From assembly GCA_012520725.1 (NCBI GenBank), contig JAAYNQ010000080.1:1-50617 (forward strand): a DNA stretch of 50,617 bases. The letters are read 5' to 3'. This stretch comes from Syntrophomonadaceae bacterium. Lineage in GTDB: Bacteria > Bacillota > Syntrophomonadia > Syntrophomonadales > Syntrophomonadaceae. The notes beneath the pieces are model-generated. The model was not told where the DNA came from. It searched no databases and worked only from the letters and a program-made list of their open reading frames with translations. Positions 1,055 to 50,617 of this stretch are shown here, in pieces (the stretch's first letter is position 1; each line of letters starts with the position of its first letter). Position numbers and translations under genes: made by a program.

Positions 1055-1200
1055 TGTAGGAGCGGCCTGTGGCCGCTCCCGCTGCCTCAGGCCTGCAAAA
1101 CAACGCAACATCCTGTAGGGGCGACCTGTGGTCGCCCGCCCGCCCTGCCCCTGAGAAGACCGTAGCAAACATGGCTGGCGGTCGAAGACCACCCTTACAA
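1055..1200. repeat. palindromic repeat cluster R1 (REPIN-like)
   Basis: Fills the gap between the first activator and the lipoprotein gene. It holds a hairpin at 1055-1080 (stem GAGCGGCC/GGCCGCTC), a second hairpin at 1114-1140 of the form GGGCGACC-TGTG-GTCGCCC, and an oppositely oriented hairpin GGCGGTC-GAA-GACC ending in CCCTTAC at about 1178-1198. The second and third together make an 86-bp unit bounded by GTAGGGG and (degenerate) CCCTTAC. The same unit recurs at 36347-36433 and elsewhere. Confidence 0.85.
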
Positions 1201-7664: not shown

Positions 7665-7928
7665 GGTAGTGGCGACCTGCAAAATACCGATATAGGCCCG
7701 TAGGGGCGACCTGCGGTCGCCCGCCGGCGGGCATCCAATAAATGGCAATGCGGTCATCGGTACGACAAAATATCGTAAAAGGTCCGGGCGGGCAAAGACC
7801 GCCCCTACAATCCTCGTCGGCAGCCCTAAATATCCGTTGTAAGTCTGTAGGGGCGAGCTGCGCTCGTCCGCCCGTCGCAAGTCCATAAATCCCATCGCAA
7901 GCCCGTAGGGGCGACCTGTGGTCGCCAG
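7665..7928. repeat. palindromic repeat cluster R2, in the leader of the ABC operon
   Basis: Contains a unit of about 110 bp bounded by GTAGGGG (7700) and CCCCTAC (ending about 7808), plus a degenerate hairpin start at 7667, and two further forward hairpins at 7845-7872 (GAGC/GCTC stem version) and 7904-7928 (GACC/GGTC version). It ends only about 15 bp from the ribosome site of the binding-protein gene, so it would be part of the 5' untranslated region unless the promoter lies inside it. The remaining gap to the coat gene terminator (7929-8160) is AT-rich and shows no gene. Confidence 0.82.
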
Positions 7929-13424: not shown

Positions 13425-13560
13425 GTGTTTCATTTTACTCTTTCCATAAAAGGATCTTTTGGCAATAAACTATTAAGGATTCATTGGCTGTTGAATCCTT
13501 TCGCCAAAACCGCTTCTTTTTCCTTTAAGGGATAATATTAAAGTATAATGAGGCAGGTGA

Positions 13561-13792
13561 ACGCAGCTCGCCCCTACAGACTTACAACGATGTTTTTGGG
13601 CCTGGCGAGGATTGTAGGGGCGGTCTTCGAGCGCCTGCCCGGGCTTGCGACGGATTTCGGGTAGTGGATAGACTGCCCGTGATGTTTATTACGGTATCCC
13701 AGTGGATGGAGGAGCGGGCGAGCGCAGCTAGCCCCTACAGACATCCGACGTAGGCTGTACGGAATGAGCGACCACAGCTCGCCCTACCAATT
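13561..13792. repeat. palindromic repeat cluster R3 (mostly reversed orientation)
   Basis: Between the ABC operon and the MFS gene. Contains reversed, partly decayed hairpins at about 13565-13583, 13712-13741 and 13764-13790 (GAGC/GCTC stem type ending in CCCTAC) and one forward copy at 13614-13645 of the GGGGCGGTC-TTC-GA type with an imperfect stem. Compared with the other clusters this one is more degenerate. Confidence 0.75.
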
Positions 13793-28690: not shown

Positions 28691-28926
28691 TGTAGGGGCG
28701 ACCTGCGGTCGCCCGCGGGTCAATTGTATGTATTAACATAAAACGAAATAACCGGTAGCAAAATACCGCCCTTGCGGTCGCCCACCCTGGGATCGGCGAT
28801 AAATACCGAATGTCTGTGCGTTATACCGCGGGCGGTCGAAGACCACCCCTGCAATCCTCCATGGGATGCAAAACACCGTTGTAAGCCGGGCCCCAAACCC
28901 ATCGTAAGCCTGTAGGGGCGACCTGC
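28691..28926. repeat. palindromic repeat cluster R4
   Basis: Occupies the 430-bp gap between SASP and the deacylase gene. Forward hairpin TGTAGGGGCGACC...GGTCGCCC at 28691-28715, a degenerate copy near 28766-28785, the reversed hairpin GGCGGTC-GAA-GACC ending in CCCCTGC at about 28829-28852, and a truncated forward copy at 28911-28926. It contains TCGGCGATAAATACCG (28795-28810), which is also present in cluster R6. Confidence 0.82.
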
Positions 28927-29023
28927 GGCATGAAGCTGCTTCAACTTCTTTGAGAATTAAGGCTCTGATTGGTTTATAATTATACTGTAGTAAAAAATGT
29001 ATCTTTGGTGGGGGAAAACAAAA

Positions 29024-36130: not shown

Positions 36131-36158
36131 GCCCGCAGGGGCGACCTGTGGTCGCCCC
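36131..36158. repeat. single palindromic repeat copy R5a after pyk
   Basis: Hairpin GGGGCGACC-TGTG with complement GTCGCCCC just after pyk. Next to it, 36075-36105 carries a decayed reversed copy (GGCGGTCAAAGACTGC). The rest of 36159-36346 shows no gene; it is AT-rich with no hairpins of note. Confidence 0.75.
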
Positions 36159-36346: not shown

Positions 36347-36433
36347 CGTAGGGGCGATCTGCGGTCGCCCGCCGGGTCGTTACCCGAAATATCGTAGCAA
36401 GCACGGCTGGCGGTCAAAGACCGCCCCCTACAA
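36347..36433. repeat. palindromic repeat unit R5b (86 bp)
   Basis: Unit bounded by GTAGGGG and CCCCCTAC: forward hairpin GGGGCGATC-TGCG-GTCGCCC (36349-36370), spacer with CGTAGCAAGCACGGC, and reversed hairpin GGCGGTC-AAA-GACCGCC (36410-36427). Almost identical in design and length to the unit at 1114-1199, including the CGTAGCAA word in the spacer. Confidence 0.85.
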
Positions 36434-47775: not shown

Positions 47776-47831
47776 AAAAAAGCAGGGGCTGTGGTCCATA
47801 CTCAGGCTTAGGATCCAGCCTCTGCTTTTTT
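47776..47831 (+). terminator. rho-independent terminator after the lytic transglycosylase
   Basis: GCAGGGGCTG paired with CAGCCTCTGC, flanked by A and T runs (AAAAA before, TTTTTT after), with GGTCC/GGATCC in the loop. It ends the polA-to-transglycosylase run. Confidence 0.78.
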
Positions 47832-49544: not shown

Positions 49545-49738
49545 TTGTAGGGGCGAGCTGTGCTCGCCCGCCGGGTCGGCGATAAATACCGTATAATCAG
49601 GCATTATGCCGTCGGAGGTTTGTAGGGGCGAGCTGTGCTCGCCCTCCGGTTGTTTACCGAAATAACATGCACGGGTGGATAAGCAATACGCATATTGGAC
49701 TTAAGGCCCGGGCGGGCGGTCGAAGACCGCCCCTACAG
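49545..49738. repeat. palindromic repeat cluster R6
   Basis: Forward hairpins of the GAGC/GCTC stem type at 49545-49572 and 49621-49646, and reversed hairpin GGCGGTC-GAA-GACCGCC with CCCCTAC at 49714-49737; the second and third make a unit of about 117 bp. Shares TCGGCGATAAATACCG with cluster R4. It fills most of the 391-bp gap after the binding-protein gene. Confidence 0.85.
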
Positions 49739-50277: not shown

Positions 50278-50299
50278 AGGGTTACTTTGTGTAGGGGCG

Positions 50300-50617
50300 A
50301 CCGGCGGGCGGTCGAAGACCGCCCCTACAGAGGTGGCCCGGGGTCCATGATCAACGTAGCAAGTTGGTAGGGGCGACCTGCGGTCGCCAGCAGTGATTGC
50401 CTATTTTGGGGGATAAACCCTTATCGTGTAAAACCCAGAATCAGCAAAAAAAGCCAGTGAGAAAACTAATGGCTATACCGGCGGGCGGTCCAAGACCGCT
50501 CCTACAGAGGTGGCCCGGGGTCCATGATCAACGTAGCAAGTTGGTAGGGGCGACCTGCGGTCGCCAGCAGTGATTGCCTATTTTGGGGGATAAACCCTTA
50601 TCGTGTAAAACCCAGAA
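50300..50617. repeat. tandem 177-bp-period duplication carrying palindromic repeats R7
   Basis: Bases 50300-50440 (141 bp) recur at 50477-50617 with only two mismatches seen (near 50313-50323); the period is 177 bp. Each copy holds a reversed hairpin GGCGGTC-GAA-GACCGCC and a forward hairpin TAGGGGCGACC...GGTCGCC. The 36-bp spacer carries TGAGAAAACTAATGG, also found beside cluster R2 (7968-7982). The second copy runs to the last base of the window, so more copies may follow. Confidence 0.9.

Follow-up and report, generated by a model that had tools for sequence, protein, structure and literature searches.

The window analysed here, a stretch of 50,617 nucleotides, is the whole of one contig (C193) of a draft genome of 2.64 Mb in 212 contigs (G000); the host of its repeats is a Syntrophomonas-like member of the Bacillota. 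Seven clusters of a dispersed repeat are found in it (near positions 1055, 7665, 13561, 28691, 36131/36347, 49545 and 50300), and these are all the clusters named in the original prediction. Within the window, to which the scoring of gene context was confined, all of them are intergenic. The earlier wording 'in most intergenic gaps' was nevertheless too strong, as about seven of the roughly twenty gaps longer than 100 bp, about a third when judged by eye on the ORF list, carry repeats. The flagged gap, which lies downstream of a pyruvate kinase gene that is convergent with an enoyl-CoA hydratase gene, holds one single REP and one head-to-head REPIN (two inverted REP palindromes). The elements of the window are as follows.

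36348–36431, forward strand: flagged head-to-head REPIN, 84 bp from GTAG to CTAC, recognised by sequence, with the length and spacer words of other 84-bp units; its left REP reads GTAGGGGCGATCTGCGGTCGCCC and its right REP, in reverse complement, GTAGGGGGCGGTCTTTGACCGCC, which contains an additional G; CGTAGCAA is found in the spacer
36135–36157, forward strand: worn REP GCAGGGGCGACCTGTGGTCGCCC, standing alone in the gap of the 36348–36431 REPIN
1056–1078, forward strand: single REP GTAGGAGCGGCCTGTGGCCGCTC, a compensated stem variant
1115–1198, forward strand: head-to-head REPIN, 84 bp, right REP worn
7666–7927: cluster of a worn REP at 7666, a REPIN at 7700–7808 (109 bp) and single REPs at 7847–7869 and 7905–7927
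13555–13738: cluster of an inverted REP at 13555–13577 and a REPIN at 13614–13738 (125 bp)
28692–28930: cluster of a REP at 28692–28714, a worn inverted REP near 28830–28856 and a truncated REP from 28912
49547–49736: cluster of a REP at 49547–49569 and a REPIN at 49622–49736 (115 bp)
50291–50617: contig-end cluster of a collapsed REPIN at 50291–50328, REPs at 50367 and 50544, and an inverted REP ending at 50505
47826–47827: site without an element in the window; a head-to-head REPIN of the same family lies at the colinear place in the sister species G003

Both units originally delimited as 36347–36433 and 1114–1199 are real, with slightly shorter bounds that give each the same length of 84 bp; the partner REP of the second is worn. 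The words that they were said to share, CGTAGCAA and GGCTGGCGGTC, were confirmed as part of the spacer that recurs in 84-bp units. At the contig end, the REPs at 50367 and 50544 lie within a 177-bp tandem duplication, and the collapsed REPIN is 38 bp long, its two ends being GTAG and CTAC, and resembles a double-foot REP produced by central deletion.

With up to one mismatch allowed, 27 copies of GTAGGGGCG are counted in the window, 17 of them exact; dinucleotide shuffles give an expectation of 9.8 (maximum of 17 in 100). Five one-mismatch matches (12637, 16188, 38503, 45739 and 47393) stand isolated outside the clusters and are probably due to chance. The genome-wide count, which had been proposed as a check, is far above chance: 215 exact copies of GTAGGGGCG in the 2.64-Mb genome against 18 of its reversed control, as expected of GTAG-class REPs, which are high-copy, dispersed and mainly located outside genes. 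Likewise, GTAGGGGCGAYC occurs 76 times (control, 1) and the full hairpin pattern GTAGGGGCGNNCNNNGNNCGCCC 132 times (control, 0), and any match to the latter is restricted to 12 of the 398 sampled genomes of the phylum. These genome-wide statistics come from pattern searches and from fetched stretches that were selected by pattern.

Anatomy and arrangement of the hairpins

The basic unit consists of GTAG and, immediately after it, a stem of 8 bp closed by a loop of 3 bases (45+36+13+10 of 118 hairpins), and seven or eight of the eight stem positions pair at 136 of the 176 GTAGGGG sites. An unpaired GTAG foot, a stem of 6–13 bp and a short loop are the features by which GTAG-class REPs are defined. 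The main stems are GGGCGACC/GGTCGCCC (42), GGGCGGTC/GACCGCCC (34) and GGGCGAGC/GCTCGCCC (10), accompanied by GGGCTAGC forms; they are built on a GGG/CCC foot, above which the variants covary (GACC/GGTC, GGTC/GACC, GAGC/GCTC), pair 7 being C-G, G-C or T-A. When every GTAGGGG site was taken in, hairpin-forming or not, complementarity at the five variable stem pairs reached 72% of cells, compared with 52.5% after shuffling, and 0 of 2000 shuffles attained the observed value.

Neighbouring REPs are arranged head-to-head (39 pairs), inversely (28) or in tandem (27). Head-to-head units cluster at lengths of 82–85 and 115–125 bp, 84 bp being the commonest in the stretches examined, and most of them join a GACC-type and a GGTC-type REP through a recurring spacer. 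The predicted REPIN design is thus borne out by 39 inverted REP pairs, with similar spacers at different places.

Occupied and empty sites in a sister species

G003 is a member of the same genus; its genome aligns colinearly with the window, at about 78–87% identity in the main blocks, and the empty-site comparison proposed earlier reveals presence/absence differences at orthologous places. The 1.1-kb cluster is absent from G003, where the gap measures 31 bp (252 bp in the window), as is the 7.7-kb cluster (136 versus 501 bp), and the 13.6-kb cluster is represented by one worn REP only. In the other direction, G003 possesses a head-to-head REPIN at the place matching 47826/47827, where the window is empty. 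The gap of the flagged REPIN contains in G003 a REP set that is arranged differently. Filled and empty sites, as expected of mobile REPINs, are therefore found in both directions, with junctions that are not base-exact; at a divergence of about 16%, too high for exact junctions, insertion and deletion are indistinguishable site by site. None of the corresponding gaps fetched from the outgroups G001, G002 and G004 contains such a hairpin, and GTAGGGGCGAYC occurs 0, 0 and 2 times in their whole genomes, respectively.

Candidate transposases and probable mobility of the repeats

A RAYT-type transposase with flanking copies of the repeat, the search for which had also been suggested, was found outside the genome of the window. 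In G334, a single-contig genome from another Bacillota family, the search turned up a single RAYT, of 160 aa, whose gene is embedded in a cluster of the hairpins described here, between GTAGGGGCGGTCATCGACCGCCC and GTAGGGGAGACCATTGGTCTCCC. This RAYT belongs to a divergent subgroup with the motifs RKxxRLxxYDYS, MPNHIH, WQ and YIxxNP, and scores 21.7 bits against the Pfam Y1_Tnp profile, below the cut-off of 23, so that family searches can miss this YDYS subgroup; 'REPs without a transposase' may therefore sometimes reflect a problem of detection. Since the G334 protein was chosen as query for its adjoining repeats, the independent test consists of the other 19 subgroup loci of the phylum only, 12 of which have perfect GTAG hairpins within 700 bp, as opposed to 0 of 25 long RAYT loci. 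The best solved structure for the subgroup profile is E. coli TnpA-REP (4er8, E = 1.2e-10), and residues N83 H84 H86, W124 Q125 and Y145 I146 N149 are invariant in the A2 subgroup set. The NH[IFV]H, WQ and YIxNNP motifs, the stem foot of three G-C pairs and REPs within the reading frame (G193, G247 and G003) place it with subclass 2.4, an assignment made by motifs and REP type and not by phylogeny with the published subclasses.

Intact subgroup RAYTs were found in G334 and G193. The G193 protein is 59% identical, and its gene contains one-mismatch GTAGGGGCGACC hairpins in both orientations, which encode VGATFGRP and GRPKVAPT. The REPs of G193 and G247 (loci L298 and L299) occupy matching places in the RAYT reading frame (GRPKVAPT and GRQNAAPT), so that part of the enzyme is encoded by its own substrate. 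The full hairpin pattern is present in 8–37 copies in G180 and G348 (family f80) and in G334 and G241 (family f92), and in few other sampled genomes; no subgroup RAYT was detected in G180, G348 or G241. Its occurrence in two distant Bacillota families suggests that REP plus RAYT spread horizontally.

Closer to the window, contig C43 of G003 carries a RAYT copy 72% identical to that of G334 over 105 residues, with window-type REPs in and beside it. This copy keeps the HUH motif and breaks off directly behind an internal GTAGGGGCGGTCTTTGACCGCC; it has thus lost the WQ and tyrosine motifs, the catalytic tyrosine included. In G000, a draft assembly that breaks at repeats, the subgroup profile search detected no subgroup RAYT, the best match (E = 0.05) being to a fragment on contig C80. 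Of 75 repeat copies, 20 are no more than 250 bp from a contig end, where 3 would be expected (copies in one array not being independent); REP-flanked genes are thus prone to drop out of the draft assembly, which makes the absence of the RAYT from G000 uncertain. The truncated copy in G003, together with none detected in G000, suggests an orphaned repeat population. One tentative scenario, which we hold to be possible but rather doubtful, is that the RAYT inactivated itself when all of its gene past the GTAG foot of the internal REP was lost, and that the repeats persisted, with tandem arrays that may still grow by recombination alone. With a broken copy in one species and none detected in its sister, the pair lends itself to studying whether REPINs persist after the death of their transposase.

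A short RAYT group (DHFH; G005, G001, Omnitrophota and others) was considered as the cognate enzyme and rejected: GTAG hairpins flank these genes, with stems that differ from those described here, making the group an analogue. One such gene of the same bacterial family (158 aa; L093, G005 contig C5, 46–1800) lies within at least 13 tandem units of 77–79 bp (GTAGCGGAAGCTTTAGCTTCCG...GGGAGGCTAAAGCCTCCCCTAC); this array is a further GTAG REPIN system, whose stem is different. In Omnitrophota MAGs (L195–L201), fully palindromic GTAG...CTAC hairpins (e.g. GTAGGTCACCCTTAAGGGTGACCTAC) are present on both sides of short RAYTs.

The repeats are very probably GTAG-class REPs, many of them paired head-to-head as REPINs, that are non-autonomous and mobilised by a subclass-2.4-like RAYT. 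This reading draws on the structure and copy number of the repeats, their covarying stems, dimer and tandem arrangements, presence/absence differences and linkage to the RAYT subgroup in other Bacillota. The substrate of the RAYT, a Y1 HUH transposase, would be the single-stranded hairpin formed by the GTAG guide and the 8-bp stem; the cognate enzyme would be of the subclass-2.4-like kind (RKxxRLxxYDYS, MPNHIH, WQ, YIxxNP). We infer that ancestors of both G000 and G003 had such an enzyme, which cut and rejoined these REPINs in single-stranded form. In this family, the folded single-stranded REP is presumably processed by the cognate RAYT, and strand-specific cleavage and transfer of such a substrate by TnpA-REP has been published for other RAYTs (PMC8266576).

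Three other origins for the repeats were weighed. The inverted terminal words and the short, dispersed units could be those of MITEs, with GTAGGGG...CCCCTAC serving as terminal inverted repeats for a DDE transposase that acts on double strands and duplicates its target site. However, REPs often occur singly or as inverse pairs, either end of a unit closes into a hairpin of its own on a constant GTAG foot, sequence outside the units recurs (cgttgtaagcct, aatcctcg), no flank duplication was noticed in the listed units, and the gene linked to the repeats encodes a Y1 HUH protein, all of which renders a MITE origin most improbable. It is also very unlikely that the hairpins are structural or regulatory elements kept by the host (terminators, mRNA ends or structured RNA) rather than mobile DNA. 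Their intergenic position and the covariation of their stems, as in RNA hairpins, would fit such a role, but a T-run (TTTT) follows only 3 of 159 hairpins, on which ground intrinsic terminators were rejected, and an Rfam scan of the window returned a tRNA alone, with no match for the hairpins. Tandem arrays, inverted pairs whose spacers recur, sites occupied in only one of the two sister species and linkage to RAYTs are likewise at odds with it; REPs might still have taken on a secondary host role after insertion.

The remaining candidate is the long RAYT fragment of contig C80, which lies outside the YDYS subgroup. In its favour, G000 yielded no other RAYT-like gene; the fragment lies at a contig edge. 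However, the repeat next to C80 is another one, AAAAGAACCGTCCCC, present twice, and many of its relatives likewise have a different repeat at their flanks; the long RAYT loci lack nearby GTAG hairpins, as given above; and G001 and G002 possess 9 and 7 Y1 genes and no GTAGGGGCGAYC. We consider it exceedingly doubtful that C80 mobilised the repeats, and retain the subclass-2.4-like RAYT as their likely mobiliser. As for the fragment itself, it adjoins two copies of AAAAGAACCGTCCCCTCGTCACGC (L009; C80, 1–420), and the word GGGGACGGT flanks many long RAYTs of its group. Such C80-like long RAYTs are possibly of the TIRYT type.

Comparison with known REP systems

GTAG REPs have stems of 6–13 bp and short loops, and form head-to-head dimers with conserved spacers as well as clusters (Di Nocera 2013, PMC3733652; Bertels and Rainey 2011, PMC3116915). 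The repeats of the window resemble the GTAG REPs and REPINs of Pseudomonas, E. coli and Nostoc (PMC3116915, PMC3733652) in their GTAG foot, 8-bp stem and 3-base loop, in their head-to-head dimers with recurring spacers, clusters, tandem arrays and compensated stem variants, and in flanking RAYT genes, here in relatives. They differ in their stems, GGGCGACC and GGGCGGTC, in a cognate RAYT undetected in the carrier genome, and in their host: the design best known from Proteobacteria is indeed found, yet in Bacillota, a phylum that does not appear among the GTAG-repeat hosts of the 2013 survey (PMC3733652). Among the matches listed for GTAGGGGCG in a literature search, only unrelated papers appeared.

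The C80 fragment and many of its relatives look like subclass 2.1 RAYTs, or TIRYTs, with GGGGWSAS inverted repeats (PMC3733652, PMC6006769); this kind carries the GGGGACGGT repeat, not GTAG hairpins, and is not the proposed mobiliser. The candidate enzyme instead shares NH[IFV]H, WQ and YIxxNP with TnpA-Y1 subclass 2.4 (group 4 RAYTs of Bertels; Quentin et al. 2018, PMC6006769), described mainly from Cyanobacteria, Bacteroidetes and 'various phyla' (PMC6006769). The truncation of the G003 copy at its own internal REP sets it apart from the described members. The repeats, in turn, match the canonical long and double-foot REPs of this subclass (PMC6006769) in the three G-C pairs of their stem foot, in the collapsed double-foot element at 50291–50328 and in a patchy distribution across phyla. 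A GTAG REPIN family and its likely enzyme subgroup are hereby placed in anaerobic Bacillota.
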